From: Lachnospiraceae bacterium
GTDB taxonomy: Bacteria; Bacillota; Clostridia; Lachnospirales; Lachnospiraceae
Assembly (NCBI GenBank): GCA_015057055.1
Contig: SVFE01000018.1
Coordinates: forward strand, 1-40,972
Direction of reading: 5' to 3'
Length of the DNA: 40,972 bases
Shown: piece by piece, positions 9,214-15,383 of the stretch
Layout of the letters: every line of letters starts with the position of its first letter
Position numbering within the stretch: the first letter of the stretch is position 1
The notes under the pieces: generated by a model
What the model was told of the DNA's origin: nothing
Seen by the model: the letters and a program-made list of their open reading frames with translations, nothing else
Database searches by the model: none
Made by a program: the position numbers and the translations under genes

Positions 9214-9702
9214 ATGCTAATGTTGTTGAGCGGAGAAACCGCAGAAGTTTCGCCGGTAGTAATTATTATTTTTGTGGCAGTAATCATCGGAGTTACCTTT
9301 TTTTGCATGAAAATGTCATCCGATCAGACGGTTGCGACAATCAAAAAACGTTTTGCGGGACAAATCCTGGCGGAATGTGAATTGCGTACCCCGGGATGCT
9401 GTAGCTTTATTACGCAGGATTCTTTTTTGATTCAAAGTAATAGCAACTGTTTTTTGGCATTTCCGCTGGCAAATATCGCCTACGTACATCCTTACAGGGA
9501 CGTATCTTCCGGACAATGGTATTTTGCGCTGCGGGACAGAGAAGGAAAGAATAAGAACTTAAACTGTTCCATGATTTGCGCAAACGGAAAAGTAAAGCAA
9601 TTGAAAACACCGCCACTGGTGGCGATGTCTCATGCGGATACCTTGAAACTTTCGGAATTTCTCATGTCTGCGGCACCCCATATTCAAATGGCCGAAAAGT
9701 AA
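9214..9702 (+). CDS. Single-pass membrane protein of unknown function
   Basis: A 162-residue protein with one strong membrane segment (about residues 14-32, VVIIIFVAVIIGVTFFC) and then a soluble, probably cytoplasmic domain of about 125 residues. Alternating strands such as DSFLIQSNSNCFLAFPLANIAYVHPY suggest a PH-like beta-barrel. Resemblance to the small PH-like membrane proteins at 37.7-38.9 kb is in layout only. The ribosome binding site is AAGGAGGAAAA. It converges on the minus-strand AT3-permease gene, with only 4 nt between the two stops. Confidence 0.6.
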   Translation: MLMLLSGETAEVSPVVIIIFVAVIIGVTFFCMKMSSDQTVATIKKRFAGQILAECELRTPGCCSFITQDSFLIQSNSNCFLAFPLANIAYVHPYRDVSSGQWYFALRDREGKNKNLNCSMICANGKVKQLKTPPLVAMSHADTLKLSEFLMSAAPHIQMAEK

Positions 9703-9706
9703 AGTG

Positions 9707-12439
9707 TTATTCCGTTACATGTCCCAGAACTATTTGGGAAGCCAGTGTTTTGGAAAAGAGGATTAGTATGATAATGGGCGGAATGGTGAAAATCAAAAGT
9801 AAAGCACTGTTTCCGAATCCCTGGTACATCGAAATTGTTCTTAAATGCGGCATATGAAGCACCAACGTGTGGAAATAGGAGTTATTCCAAGCGGCGCTGA
9901 AGGAAAACAGTAGTTGGAGGCATAATGCCGGTTTGATTGCCGGTAAAATAATTCGGTGAAAAATACCGATTTCGCGACAACCGTCGATGCGGGCTGCTTC
10001 CACGATACTTTGCAGCGGTATCATTCGCAGGTACATCCGCATAAAATAGGCCACGGAAGGAGTTGCAATTGCCGGTAAAATCAAGGGAAGCAGATTGTTT
10101 AGTAAACCAAGCTTTAACACCAAATGGAAAAAACCGACGGAGCTGCCGACCGGAGAAAACATAAGTGCTACGGTAATGAGTTTCCAAAGCGGCTTTCGGC
10201 CTCTAAAGCGATACATTTCAAGACCGTAGGCGCACAGGCTTCCGCAGTAGACTGCTAAAAACATACTGCCGAGTGCCACGACCAGAGAGTAGAACAAGGC
10301 TTCATAAAAGGTACAGTCCAGGCCTGCCGTCATGGAGAGCAGTGTATTGTAATTGTCTTCAAAGTGTCCTTCCGGAAGGAATTTAATCCCGCGTTGGTCC
10401 TTCCGGGTGGCATTGATGAAAACGATATAAAGGGGCAGGATGGAAAGTACACTTAAAAAAATACAAAATATATGGCGTAGTGTGAGACGCAAGGTCTTTG
10501 CCGGGCGGTGTTTTACAAAATGTGCCCAGCGCTGTAGCTTGCCTTTTATTTCGCAAAAAAAGTTTCTGATTGCGGGTCGGAGGTCCTTCCTTTTGGGGAA
10601 GGGCTTTTTATTTATTTTGCACAAAATAAAGGTGCTGATATCGTGAAGCAGGGTTGCGGCGATAACAGAGCACATAAGTACCGCCAGTATATAAAGCCCT
10701 GCGCCGGTAATTGCACTTAAATGATTGATAAACAGGTTGTGAATCAGATACAGTTCCAGGGAAATTTTTCCAAGGAAACGCAGCACTGTATTGTCAAACC
10801 GGCATTTAAGGGAAATCATAACCATTAGGCATACAAAGAAAACGGTCATGCCAAGTTGGGGGAGCAAAGTGATTACTTTGTCATAATACTGCGGATTATC
10901 CGGTGTTTCTGTCCAATAACCGTGGTAAAGCAGCATTTGGGATGTGACGTAAGTAAGCACAAGGTAAGCCAGGGAAAAGAAAACCGTCAGCATCACATAA
11001 TGTTTTTTCAAAAAAGTAAGGATTGATTCTTCCCGGTACGCCATAAGGATTCCAAGGAGGAAAATCAGGGAGGAATTGTACCACCATTCCCCTTGAAACC
11101 AATATTCTCCGTGACCGAGAAGAAGGCTTCCGGCGGTCAGAAGGCACAGAAACAAAAACATACCGAGGATAGCAATGTGTTCTCTTTTTATGAAGCAAAA
11201 CAGCAGATAGAACACCGTATACAGCAGTGCGATTTCTACGATGTACCACATGTGTGAGTTAATCAGGAGCCAGCCGCTAAGGTAAGCTAACCATTCCGTG
11301 ACGTTATATCTTTGCCCGCTCAAAAATTCCGTCGCCAAAAAGACAATAATGCAAAGGTAAAAAGGAATTAAAATGGCGGGAAATCGTTTGCGGAAAAAGC
11401 CCTTGAAATAGCCGGGCTTATTTTGCTTGCTTTTCATCAGTCCGTAGCCGGAGTAGAAAAAGAATCCGCCCACAAGGCATACTCCGAAATGCTCCAAACA
11501 GGCCAGAATACTTGCATTTTCTGCTCCGATGGTCTGTACCAGGTGGTGAAGGACAATAAGGAGTGCAAAAAAACCAAGGACCGCTTTGGAGTTCTGTAAT
11601 CCCAGCGGATTTAACTGCCAGGCACCGTATAGTTCTTCCTCCGTGACTTTTCCCCGGGACAAATCCTGAAGGTCTTTGGCACTGGGAACATAATTACTGT
11701 CTTTATGTTTCATTCCGGAAAACAGAATGTAAAACAGGGGGATTACCAAAATCCAAAGTGAGAAGGTGAAGGTTTTGGCAAGTTCCCAGAAAGATTTTCG
11801 AGGAATTTCCCGAATTCCTTCGGTGGCATTGCCGGTTTGAATTTCAGAGATAATCGGTAGGAATTTGGCATCCAAATCCGGAAGCAAATCCTCCGGCAGG
11901 AATTCTTCCTCTGCCACATAGTAACAACGAAACAGCACAAAATTATCGTTGGTGACGGTAACATAGTCGGTTACCAGCTCGTAATCATTGTAGTAGGGTT
12001 CGAACCGTGCATAGGTATATTTGGTGAAGGCAAGGTCGTTAATCTCCAGGGCTTCCGAAACCGGTTCCGTAGAAACAGAGAAGCCATCCACTTGCGGTGC
12101 GTAGGAGGTGCCTTCCGTGACATTGTGAATATAAACTTCCATGTAATAAGTCCATTGTTCGTCCGTAAGAAGGAAAGAAATATCGTATTTTTCAAAATGA
12201 TTCCGATAGCCTTTTTTGGTATCCTGAAAGAAACGCAGCCATCTTCTCGGTGTTTCGATGGAGAGATCGGCTTCGTTTAAATAGGTGATAGTCTGGCTTC
12301 GGCCGTTATAAACGGTGTTTCCGAAGGCGGAGTTTTCCTCCCTGTCGCGGACAACCCGGCCGGTTAACATTAAAGTGATTATCATAAGCAGGATAAAGGC
12401 TCCTGCGGTGCGAATATTCCATTTTAAAAATGTTTTCAT
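9707..12439 (-). CDS. Extracellular domain/AT3 acyltransferase/MalG-type ABC permease fusion
   Basis: A 910-residue membrane protein. Residues 1-30 are a membrane anchor, and about 35-215 an extracytoplasmic alpha/beta domain that I do not recognise. Then come a helix at 218-240 and an acyltransferase-3 domain at about 281-605 (His298-His299, FFYSGYGL at 327-334, FLGKISLELYLIH at 556-568). After a basic linker, a full carbohydrate ABC permease domain spans about 645-908. Its ATPase-contact EAA loop, from E814 to P833, fits EAA-x3-G-x9-I-x-LP exactly. AT3 proteins move acyl groups onto surface sugars or lipids; MalG-type subunits normally pair with MalF, an ATPase and a binding protein, none of which is here. 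No internal ATG lies between M589 and M699, so one chain is likely. It starts 11 nt after the preceding AT3 gene, whose AT3 domain is a close paralogue (shared GEWWYN and GYWTETP). It is the least usual protein in the window. Confidence 0.75.
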   Translation of the reverse strand: MKTFLKWNIRTAGAFILLMIITLMLTGRVVRDREENSAFGNTVYNGRSQTITYLNEADLSIETPRRWLRFFQDTKKGYRNHFEKYDISFLLTDEQWTYYMEVYIHNVTEGTSYAPQVDGFSVSTEPVSEALEINDLAFTKYTYARFEPYYNDYELVTDYVTVTNDNFVLFRCYYVAEEEFLPEDLLPDLDAKFLPIISEIQTGNATEGIREIPRKSFWELAKTFTFSLWILVIPLFYILFSGMKHKDSNYVPSAKDLQDLSRGKVTEEELYGAWQLNPLGLQNSKAVLGFFALLIVLHHLVQTIGAENASILACLEHFGVCLVGGFFFYSGYGLMKSKQNKPGYFKGFFRKRFPAILIPFYLCIIVFLATEFLSGQRYNVTEWLAYLSGWLLINSHMWYIVEIALLYTVFYLLFCFIKREHIAILGMFLFLCLLTAGSLLLGHGEYWFQGEWWYNSSLIFLLGILMAYREESILTFLKKHYVMLTVFFSLAYLVLTYVTSQMLLYHGYWTETPDNPQYYDKVITLLPQLGMTVFFVCLMVMISLKCRFDNTVLRFLGKISLELYLIHNLFINHLSAITGAGLYILAVLMCSVIAATLLHDISTFILCKINKKPFPKRKDLRPAIRNFFCEIKGKLQRWAHFVKHRPAKTLRLTLRHIFCIFLSVLSILPLYIVFINATRKDQRGIKFLPEGHFEDNYNTLLSMTAGLDCTFYEALFYSLVVALGSMFLAVYCGSLCAYGLEMYRFRGRKPLWKLITVALMFSPVGSSVGFFHLVLKLGLLNNLLPLILPAIATPSVAYFMRMYLRMIPLQSIVEAARIDGCREIGIFHRIILPAIKPALCLQLLFSFSAAWNNSYFHTLVLHMPHLRTISMYQGFGNSALLLIFTIPPIIILILFSKTLASQIVLGHVTE

Positions 12440-12450
12440 AAAGAATTCCC

Positions 12451-13569
12451 CTATTTTTTTTCTAATATAAGCAATTTAATTTTGTTGATGATGATGGCCA
12501 AAAACAAGGTGCACACCGTGGTCGTCAGCAGGTAGAGTCCTGTTTTTTGCGGAAAATAGTCTGTAAAAAGGAACAGAAATACATTTTGCAAAAGCACCAG
12601 TTCCAATGAAATTTTTCCGAGAAAAGTCAGAAAGCGATTGTGTATCCTGACTTTTAAAAGGATTAGCAATAATAACAGTTCGAAGGTAATGACCATGGGG
12701 AGCTGGACTGACAGAGTCAGTATTTTATCGGCATAGCCATTGTCAAAAGGGGTTTCGGTCCAATAACCGTAATTTGACAGCATATAATCGGTTGCTTTCC
12801 ATAACAGCAGAAACAAAACGGAGAATACAAGGAGGAGACGGCCGTAATACTTTTGGGCCGTGACCAGTAGTTTTTCGCGATGCTTTGCAAGGAGCATTCC
12901 GATAAAAAACAGAAGCGTGGTATTGTACCACCATTCTCCGTGGAACCAATGCATTTGAATATTGTCGTTGTCATGACCCTGAAAGAAGCTAAAAATAATG
13001 AGGCCAAGGACAAAGGTTCCCATGAAGAGAAAATTCAATTTTTCGTTTTTGGAGAAACGGAAAATAAGGAAAAAGGCCATATACAATATCATAATTTCCA
13101 CGGCAAACCACATTTGGTCATTGAGCAGAATCAGGCCAAAGAACGAAAGGACCAATTCTTTCATGGAATACCTGCTTCCGGCCAGCAATGTGGTGAGGAT
13201 ATAGATGTAGTGGCAGATAAAAAAGGGTAAGAGCACGGTGCAAACCCGTCGTATCACAAAGGTTTTTAAGTAGTTTTCTTTGGTTTCGCAGCTGATTATC
13301 AAACCGTATCCGGAAAAAAGAAAGAAAAAGCCGACGAGGAGAACGCCCATCTGTTCCACCGCGAAGGATACCGCATCGATTTCATAATATCGATTGTAGA
13401 GGACGGCTACGTGATGAAACAGGATGCAGAGGGAAAAGTAGCCGGTCAGACCCTTGGTAACGCTTAGGTCGAAGGGGGATTCCTGAAATTGTTTTTTGCC
13501 GGCAATTCGGATTCCGGGCAGCAAGATGACCAGAGAAAACAGCAGAAAAAACAAACCGTACCGTATCAT
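12451..13569 (-). CDS. Acyltransferase family 3 (AT3) membrane protein
   Basis: A 372-residue integral membrane protein with about ten helices. AT3 features are FHH near the end of the first core helix, FFFLFSGYGL, a long loop with HGEWWYN, GYWTETP, and FLGKISLELVLLQN in the last third. AT3 proteins transfer acetyl or other acyl groups across the membrane to polysaccharide, peptidoglycan or lipid acceptors; the acceptor is not evident here. GAAAGGAGG places the start at 13569 rather than the longer frame start at 13623. Its ATG overlaps the TGA of the XRE gene as ATGA, so translation is coupled. The downstream fusion protein carries a paralogous AT3 domain, which suggests tandem duplication. 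Confidence 0.8.
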   Translation of the reverse strand: MIRYGLFFLLFSLVILLPGIRIAGKKQFQESPFDLSVTKGLTGYFSLCILFHHVAVLYNRYYEIDAVSFAVEQMGVLLVGFFFLFSGYGLIISCETKENYLKTFVIRRVCTVLLPFFICHYIYILTTLLAGSRYSMKELVLSFFGLILLNDQMWFAVEIMILYMAFFLIFRFSKNEKLNFLFMGTFVLGLIIFSFFQGHDNDNIQMHWFHGEWWYNTTLLFFIGMLLAKHREKLLVTAQKYYGRLLLVFSVLFLLLWKATDYMLSNYGYWTETPFDNGYADKILTLSVQLPMVITFELLLLLILLKVRIHNRFLTFLGKISLELVLLQNVFLFLFTDYFPQKTGLYLLTTTVCTLFLAIIINKIKLLILEKK

Positions 13570-14156
13570 CTTTCTTCCTCCTTTCGCAATGTATGATTTA
13601 ATATGGTGAAAAGTTCGCTCCACTCCGGAGAGAGGGTATCGAGAGCGTCTTTTTGCATTTGTCGGATGGCTTCTTCCGGGTCGGAAAAGCAGGGGATTCC
13701 GTCTGCGTCAAGTTCTGTTTGGTAGGCCGGATGCTGCAAATCAATTGCGCCATTGTTAACGTCCGGCAATCCGGTTAGATTCATGATGTTTAGGATGATG
13801 GAAACTAAAAGCAACAAAACAACACAAATCAATATAATGATGGATTTGCTGATTACGTGTTTTCGGTGCATTTCTTTGTCGGAGAGCTGCAAAGAATCAT
13901 CCAGAACCTGCCGTACCTGTTCGATTGGAATCGGTTCTTCTGCGGGCATGCGTTCCCCTTGCAACAGTTCCAATACGCTTACTTGCAATGCGTCGGATAA
14001 GGGCTCTAACATGGAAATATCAGGATAGCTTAACCCCCGTTCCCACTTTGAAACCGCCTTGTCCGTAATGCATAGTTTGTCGGCAAGTTCTTTTTGCGTC
14101 ATTTGTTGTTCTTTTCGGAGCATCTGAACAAACGCTCCCAATTTTTCTTTATCCAT
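13566..14156 (-). CDS. Membrane-anchored XRE-family regulator
   Basis: A 196-residue protein. Residues 1-65 are an XRE/Cro helix-turn-helix (MTQKELADKLCITDKAVSKWERGLSYPDISMLEPL). A cytoplasmic linker follows, then one membrane helix at about 105-128, then an outward-facing domain of about 65 residues. The layout suggests a one-component sensor that couples an envelope signal to transcription. It is the first gene of the AT3 operon and overlaps the next gene by 4 nt. It probably controls its own promoter (candidate at 14188-14216). A divergent AT3 gene begins 156 nt away and may be controlled by the same protein (inference). Confidence 0.8.
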   Translation of the reverse strand: MDKEKLGAFVQMLRKEQQMTQKELADKLCITDKAVSKWERGLSYPDISMLEPLSDALQVSVLELLQGERMPAEEPIPIEQVRQVLDDSLQLSDKEMHRKHVISKSIIILICVVLLLLVSIILNIMNLTGLPDVNNGAIDLQHPAYQTELDADGIPCFSDPEEAIRQMQKDALDTLSPEWSELFTILNHTLRKEEER

Positions 14157-14312: not shown

Positions 14313-15383
14313 GTGGGAAAGAAGCGTATTGCATATTTGGATTTGGTCAGAGTGGTAGCCTGCGTACTGGTGGTGCTGGTACATGTGGCTGCCCGTGAGG
14401 TAGAATATTATAACGTAGAAAGTTGGCAGTATGTGGTTGCCAATGCGTTTCATATTTTGGCTTTTTCCGGAGTGCCGCTGTTTGTGATGATTAGCGGGGC
14501 ATTGGTACTACGCCCGGAAAAGGAAATGGGGATAAAGGACTTACTGATAAAAAAGACCCTGCATTTTTTCATTTTGTATTATATCTGGAAATTCATTTAT
14601 CAGATTGTGATGGTGCAGGAGCAAGGAATCCCTTTGTCCGGAGAAACGATAAAAACAGAACTGATATTGGCGCTGGTAAAGCAGCGGGGATATTATCATT
14701 TGTGGTTTTTGCCCATGCTTGCCATTTTGTACATGACGGTGCCTCTTATTAAAAAAAGCGTGGCGGAAAAAAATGTGTGCCGTTATTTCCTTAGCGTATT
14801 TATGGTGGTAGCACTGCTTTTCCCGACCTTGTTTTTATATGAATTCAAATTTAAGTATATGTTTGTGAGTTTATTTTCTTATAATGATTTTTCGTTTTTT
14901 TCCGGTTATCTTGGTTATTTTATTCTGGGGCATTATCTCCACTGCTGGCAACAGGATATTACCGCAAAGAAACGGGGGTGGTTGCTATTAACCGGCGTAG
15001 CCGCATTTTTGTTGGCTTGTATTTTGGGAACGCATGCAGCGAGAGAGGCGGGGATGCCGGACTATGGTATGCAGTCCCCCTTTGTAATAACGAACTTTTT
15101 TACTACCGTAGGAATTTTTCTGGCATGTCAAAGCATAGGAAATAAAAGGGAAGCGAAGCAGGATACGATGGAACATCCGCCCTACAGAAAAGCAGCGGAG
15201 TTAACTTTCGGAATTTATTTATTGCATCCGCTTTGTCTGAAAGTGTTTGAAGAATTGAAACTTGAACGGTGGCTGGAAGTGCCGATGCTTACAATACCGG
15301 CGGTACTGGCGGGAACCGTTTTGGTCAGTGCATTTGTTACGGCGTGGCTAAAGGTCATCCCGATTTTGCGAAAATTAGTATAA
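14313..15383 (+). CDS. Acyltransferase family 3 (AT3) membrane protein
   Basis: A 356-residue integral membrane protein with the most canonical AT3 signature of the three in this region. In YLDLVRVVACVLVVLVHVAA an Arg is followed by ten residues and then the conserved His. MISGALVL and FGIYLLHPLCLKV are also typical. About ten helices and no attached SGNH domain. It is probably an O-acyltransferase acting on an exported glycan or a peptidoglycan component. GAGGAGG at 14301-14307 supports GTG 14313 as the start. It is divergent from the XRE/AT3 operon and less similar to those two AT3 domains than they are to each other. Confidence 0.8.
   Translation: MGKKRIAYLDLVRVVACVLVVLVHVAAREVEYYNVESWQYVVANAFHILAFSGVPLFVMISGALVLRPEKEMGIKDLLIKKTLHFFILYYIWKFIYQIVMVQEQGIPLSGETIKTELILALVKQRGYYHLWFLPMLAILYMTVPLIKKSVAEKNVCRYFLSVFMVVALLFPTLFLYEFKFKYMFVSLFSYNDFSFFSGYLGYFILGHYLHCWQQDITAKKRGWLLLTGVAAFLLACILGTHAAREAGMPDYGMQSPFVITNFFTTVGIFLACQSIGNKREAKQDTMEHPPYRKAAELTFGIYLLHPLCLKVFEELKLERWLEVPMLTIPAVLAGTVLVSAFVTAWLKVIPILRKLV

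Follow-up and report, generated by a model that had tools for sequence, protein, structure and literature searches.

A rare and conserved fusion of an AT3 acyltransferase with a MalG-type ABC permease in a gut Lachnospiraceae bacterium

How AT3-type membrane acyltransferases bring their acyl donor and an outer acceptor together is only partly understood. This question is raised in a particular form by a gene in 40,972 nucleotides of DNA from a gut Lachnospiraceae bacterium (contig SVFE01000018.1 of assembly GCA_015057055.1; this whole stretch is called the window below). A single open frame of 910 codons on the minus strand joins an extracytoplasmic domain, an AT3 acyltransferase and a permease subunit of an ATP-binding cassette (ABC) transporter in one polytopic protein. 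Is this protein real, and what could a permease half do behind an acyltransferase? AT3-only and AT3-SGNH are named in the available text of PMC7448272 as the two architectures known for bacterial AT3 carbohydrate acetyltransferases, and the word "permease" is absent from the searched text of PMC9558356, PMC7448272 and PMC12423673. A preliminary description of the window, made from its letters alone, had noted that no fusion to a sugar-ABC permease was known, and none was found in the literature that we searched, which left most subscription papers outside. The fusion is a real, conserved and rare architecture.

The layout of the gene is summarized in Table 1. Pfam Acyl_transf_3 (PF01757) matched residues 289-598 (E 4e-22, 79 bits against a curated cut-off of 31). 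BPD_transp_1 matched residues 731-895 with 25.9 bits (E 9.5e-6), under its cut-off of 26.4, in the scan of the whole protein, and with 37.7 bits, above the cut-off, in the genome scan. The sugar-permease models of NCBIfam matched residues 653-872 (E 5e-21, 75.5 bits), with their equivalog cut-off of 340 far from reached. The domain folds are those of predicted models: the AT3 part adopts the TmAT membrane fold, and the permease part has the MalG/SugB fold, in agreement with its sequence profile. The outer domain is flanked by two hydrophobic stretches (residues 12-30 and 224-242), and the Pfam scan of the whole protein gave no SGNH or GDSL match. The linker lies in a presumably cytosolic basic loop (residues 599-656), which contains 16 Lys or Arg against 3 Asp or Glu residues. 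The EAA loop agrees with every position of the consensus EAAX3GX9IXLP (PMC5730181), and the permease is complete, as first described.

Table 1. Coordinates of the fusion gene, its parts and the adjoining features in the window
Feature	Position	Strand	Remarks
Fusion gene: outer domain, AT3, MalG-type permease	9707..12439	minus	ATG at 12439, stop at 9707; 910 aa
Extracytoplasmic PsbP/Mog1/DcrB-like domain, residues 47-204	11828..12301	minus	Predicted fold (model)
AT3 / TmAT-fold acyltransferase, residues 277-606	10622..11611	minus	H298, R352, E451-N455, S560xxxY564 in 15/15 fusions
Linker, residues 607-645	10505..10621	minus	In basic loop, without ATG
CUT1 MalG/SugB-type ABC permease, complete, residues 646-910	9710..10504	minus	
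EAA loop E814-P833	9941..10000	minus	ATPase contact site by homology
C-terminal tail GHVTE	9710..9724	minus	Counterpart of MalG -GVKG tail; T where 14/15 rows have K
Second AT3 gene of apparent operon	12451..13569	minus	ATG in ATGA overlap with the regulator's stop
HTH_3 regulator with hydrophobic stretch (by eye), first gene of apparent operon	13566..14156	minus	
Terminator-like hairpin, 12 pairs, after fusion gene	9604..9631	minus	Consensus match only

The AT3 and permease parts are not separated by an ATG, in line with the preliminary description; the only ATG among codons 560-680 is codon 589, within the AT3 domain. TTG codons are present at 606 and 650, neither with a convincing Shine-Dalgarno sequence. 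An internal start for a separate permease was rejected, since the linker lacks an ATG and no methionine in this region is common to the homologues by eye.

Other assemblies encode 14 full-length homologues in single frames (884-943 aa, 34-54% identical to the window copy), all with the same domain order, and one of them comes from an isolate, Eubacterium sp. MSJ-21. The fusion is taken to be real because related bacteria retain this rare arrangement, and the open frame with its three parts, as originally proposed, is borne out by these homologues, by Pfam and by the models. An assembly join, a frameshift or a pseudogene might be suspected from the 104 contigs of the window assembly, from a broken copy in genome G026 and from a short copy in G233. 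However, these artefacts are ruled out by the full-length frames of the 14 homologues, which include that of the isolate, and by ratios of nonsynonymous to synonymous substitution rates (dN/dS) well below 1 in relatives, so that their probability is negligible. Homologues encoded as two separate proteins had been named as possible counter-evidence; all the full-length homologues are fused, and the copies in G026 and G233 are not two ordinary genes. The G026 copy is split in two pieces on two contigs (L066:5362-8293 and L067:4383-6047), with a transposase gene after the first. In the short G233 copy (L074:1126-2895), part of a helix-turn-helix (HTH) gene adjoins, by eye, the second AT3 half and the permease, which may reflect a deletion or an assembly fault.

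The two halves have been inherited together. In the permease tree, 17 fused rows, including two partial ones, group in a single clade (100/100) next to stand-alone MalG proteins of Lachnospiraceae; the AT3 parts of 15 fusions likewise group in a single clade (99/99), whose inner order is similar, not identical, to that of the permease tree. The comparison with stand-alone MalG and AT3 families that had been suggested therefore places each fused part in a clade of its own. Both trees have midpoint roots, for drawing only. Hits below 80 bits and L002 were left out of the permease tree; the AT3 alignment and tree left out hits below 200 bits (including the L046 and L052 AT3 genes that adjoin MalF-MalG), L002, L014, L074 and the first G026 piece; and A2 holds 13 of the 15 full-length fusions, with L006 and L010 left out. 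In five pairs of relatives, dN/dS was 0.038-0.107 for the permease, 0.060-0.098 for AT3, 0.058-0.184 for the outer domain and 0.124-0.264 for the linker, with dS close to 1 or higher for most parts in three of the five pairs and with members shared between pairs. These values show purifying selection in relatives, and the permease part is under as much constraint as the AT3 part in these pairs, none of which includes the window copy.

The search for this architecture in Lachnospiraceae that the preliminary description had advised yielded the 14 full-length homologues. In a family sample of 397 genomes, full fusions are present in G000, G003 and G119 and the short copy in G233; the G119 fusion is the same as that of locus L035 by eye. 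Within the genus, 10 of 35 genomes (own included) encode the protein in one frame, and one more, G026, in two pieces. A scan of GTDB contigs gave 24 loci encoding a relative, with a full fusion in five (L034-L038), including the Eubacterium isolate. At E 1e-95, the order sample (1/392 genomes) and the phylum sample (1/398) returned the own genome only; for the family, order and phylum samples, the scores cover no more than the two top candidates of each genome. Among plasmids, 403 records matched and none covered more than 80% of the query. The architecture is rare and is found seldom outside the genus. The window copy is 54% identical to L034 and L038, versus 34-38% to nine same-genus copies; this closeness may mean that the gene as a whole was transferred or underwent old sorting.

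The ATPase-docking parts of the permease half are conserved. In the alignment of the window copy with the 14 homologues, E814, R817-G820, E823, F827, P833 and P837 are invariant, and the core residues of the EAA loop are kept in 15/15 fusions, contrary to the loss in all relatives that had been considered. The C-terminal G-x-V-K tail is kept in 14/15, with Val or Ile at the third place. A set of 22 stand-alone permeases has 62 conserved positions; the 17 fused rows keep 36 of these, among them the glycine and lysine of the tail and most of the EAA loop, and the other 26 have changed or vary. According to the available part of PMC5730181, the C-terminal tail of MalG touches the Q loops of MalK and is conserved in MsmX-energised permeases, deletion of the AraQ tail slowed growth on the substrate (destabilisation was not excluded), and single changes of the EAA aspartates in AraP or AraQ impair uptake. 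By its place in the motif, D819 is probably the counterpart of these aspartates. The permease may stand last in the chain because a free C-terminus is needed. Orphan multitask ATPases are described in the available text of PMC7658222.

The AT3 half keeps some of the family motifs, named here after the accessible part of PMC12423673 by transmembrane helix (TMH). The FxxxxG motif of TMH2 (F328-G333) and the SxxxY motif of TMH9 (S560-Y564) are present in 15/15 fusions. The R-x10-H motif of TMH1 is incomplete: H298 and H299 are found in 15/15, but position 288, aligned with the Arg, is Leu in 14 and Met in one, and Lys or Arg occupies position 285, three residues before it, in 15/15. In two related families the TMH1 Arg is usually replaced by Lys, as stated in the same part of PMC12423673. 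At the RxxR motif of TMH3, K351-R352 is found in 15/15 without a second Arg at that spacing. Membership among catalytic AT3 proteins is qualified because the TMH1 Arg position holds Leu or Met; acyl transfer by the fusion is likely but not certain. Across 79 AT3 rows of the clade (15 fusions and 64 others), E451, W452, W453 and G463 are invariant. The first three belong to an EWWYN motif (window 11075-11089, residues 451-455) whose Tyr and Asn are nearly invariant in these rows; it is a possible subfamily signature and is not present in the more canonical AT3 at 14313-15383.

The preliminary description had supposed that the other ABC subunits are encoded elsewhere. One MsmK-like ATPase is encoded in the own genome, away from the fusion. 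This genome has 13 permease-family matches: the fusion, three pairs of MalF and MalG, two pairs of other kinds and two single genes. Pairing and frame length revealed no orphan MalF among them (the single genes C46 and C42 were not read). A MalF query matched only the three paired MalF proteins. The OB_MalK domain was found in 6/6 and 6/8 genomes, missing in G023 and G434; in G434, which has a binding protein-MalF-MalG operon, the own MsmK as a query found N-terminal pieces of 93-94% identity. In G432, the MalF query gave nothing at E 1e-5, though this genome encodes the fusion and an MsmK of 90% identity. Eight of its nine permease-family matches were listed, of which six look like other importers and two adjoin a PotA-like ATPase; the ninth is presumably the fusion.

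We propose, with a probability of roughly 0.45 for the explanation as a whole, that the fusion works as an acyltransferase at the cell surface and has retained, in its permease half, the docking of a shared MsmK-type ATPase, and that it goes back to one event joining an AT3 protein with a PsbP/DcrB-like outer domain to a CUT1 (MalG/SugB-type) permease. The AT3 half would probably take an acyl group from cytosolic acyl-CoA across the membrane and hand it to an extracytoplasmic acceptor, which the outer domain may hold, and the permease half would dock the ATPase via the EAA loop and, in most members, the free C-terminal tail. The protein, either homodimeric or paired with a borrowed MalF, would then work as a transmembrane half-unit driven by ATP within the complex that carries out acyl transfer; ATPase binding, acylation, substrate movement and pairing are all inferred. 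The preliminary interpretation is supported in part, and its coupling of acyl transfer to ABC-driven movement is a hypothesis. In a bolder form, two fusions paired via their permease halves would bind the shared MsmK, and ATP-driven alternating access would move or gate a glycan or the acyl donor for the AT3 half, which would make the protein an ATP-coupled acyltransferase, a hybrid of an ABC transporter and a transmembrane acyltransferase. We consider this form quite improbable. A natural AT3-ABC permease fusion with an intact ATPase dock lets one test the tie of ATP-driven movement to surface acylation, and it bears on the capabilities of a single MalG-type half that has no MalF gene next to it. 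If the proposal is true, the idea of multitask ATPases extends to a client other than a plain importer.

Several observations weigh against this proposal. In 15 loci (window, L034-L038, L058-L066; L063 shows 349 bases upstream only), inspection by eye and Pfam scans of selected neighbours showed neither a MalF nor a binding protein nor an importer ATPase immediately next to the fusion, and a CUT1 operon in L061 lies about 2.2 kb from the fusion on the opposite strand. The 26 changed or variable permease positions include 764 (Gln to Ile, Val or Ser) and 857 (Pro to Gln or His). The window copy has a shortened loop between transmembrane segments 5 and 6 (TM5-TM6) and lacks the tail lysine, and among the copies it may make the least convincing argument that the ATPase is docked. 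The AT3 half is without the TMH1 Arg at its usual place and without RxxR. The fusion carrier G023 showed no OB_MalK domain and no MsmK above 50% identity, and the own MsmK as a query found none above 50% in G005 (67% complete). G023 is rated 99% complete and has several paired CUT1-like permeases. The missing neighbours, the 26 positions and the altered window copy would also fit a permease domain that no longer moves substrate and is kept as a scaffold, a dimerisation module or an ATPase-sensing module that positions or gates the acyltransferase. This alternative stays because of the 26 changed or variable positions; however, conservation of the EAA loop and the tail, and a permease part as constrained as the enzyme part in the five pairs, argue against it, and we regard it as somewhat unlikely. 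The fusion might instead be chiefly an alternative MalG of an ordinary importer that pairs with a resident CUT1 MalF and brings the acyltransferase along, which overlaps one form of our proposal. The position of its permease domain beside stand-alone Lachnospiraceae MalG in the tree and the three MalF proteins of the own genome are consistent with this, but the null MalF query in G432 and the other importers there speak against it as far as the completeness of that genome allows and with the MalF operon of G434 in view, and we find it rather unlikely. G432 was dropped as decisive proof that the fusion works without MalF.

Compared with the AT3-SGNH proteins OafA, OafB and OatA, the fusion likewise combines an AT3 membrane core with an extracytoplasmic domain. 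However, this domain stands at the N-terminus and by model resembles PsbP/DcrB instead of SGNH, the C-terminus is an ABC permease, and the TMH1 and TMH3 motifs deviate. With CUT1 MalG, SugB and AraQ, which are energised by MalK/MsmX-type ATPases, it shares the modeled fold, the EAA loop and, in 14/15 fusions, the tail; it differs in sitting behind an acyltransferase, in the absence of a MalF or binding protein seen beside it and in the 26/62 positions. Two further groups have a related AT3 clade and another C-terminal partner. Long proteins with two AT3 domains were found in 13 loci (L039-L045, L047-L051, L057), where by eye one to three outer domains precede the AT3 domains; their C-terminal partner is a second AT3 (two Pfam stretches in the scanned L040, L042, L043 and L049) instead of a permease, and an HTH gene and another AT3 gene lie nearby in 12/13 loci, as in some fusion loci. 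AT3-DUF6273 proteins (L080 by Pfam; L081, L088 and L096 by eye) end in DUF6273. A profile of the fusion's outer domain does not match the outer parts of either group. A second association of AT3 with ABC permeases occurs in L046 (same contig as L128) and L052, where genes for AT3 (464/470 aa), a MalF-like and a MalG-like protein follow in overlapping order, with further AT3 genes and one HTH gene in the vicinity; neither a binding protein nor an ATPase was seen as an immediate neighbour. These AT3 proteins are likewise encoded with a CUT1 permease pair, but as separate proteins, and their MalG lies outside the fusion clade.

In the window, the fusion is the third gene of an apparent operon, after the HTH_3 regulator and the second AT3 gene, from which it is separated by 11 bases. 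The second AT3 lacks the TMH9 Tyr. HTH and AT3 genes precede the fusion in 6/15 loci (window, L034, L035, L037, L038, L066), and a secreted-looking esterase or GDSL gene is found in at least 3/15 (L035, L059, L066); a separate GDSL gene follows the fusion in G003. Downstream of the fusion in L037 lie a GntR-like gene, an ABC ATPase and a membrane protein, of another type by eye. In L062:6796-8712 (G021), a CotH-kinase gene and the beginning of the fusion gene share a few bases. Elsewhere in the window, positions 1273-2076 encode an AbiEii-type nucleotidyltransferase (Pfam), possibly half of a toxin-antitoxin pair.
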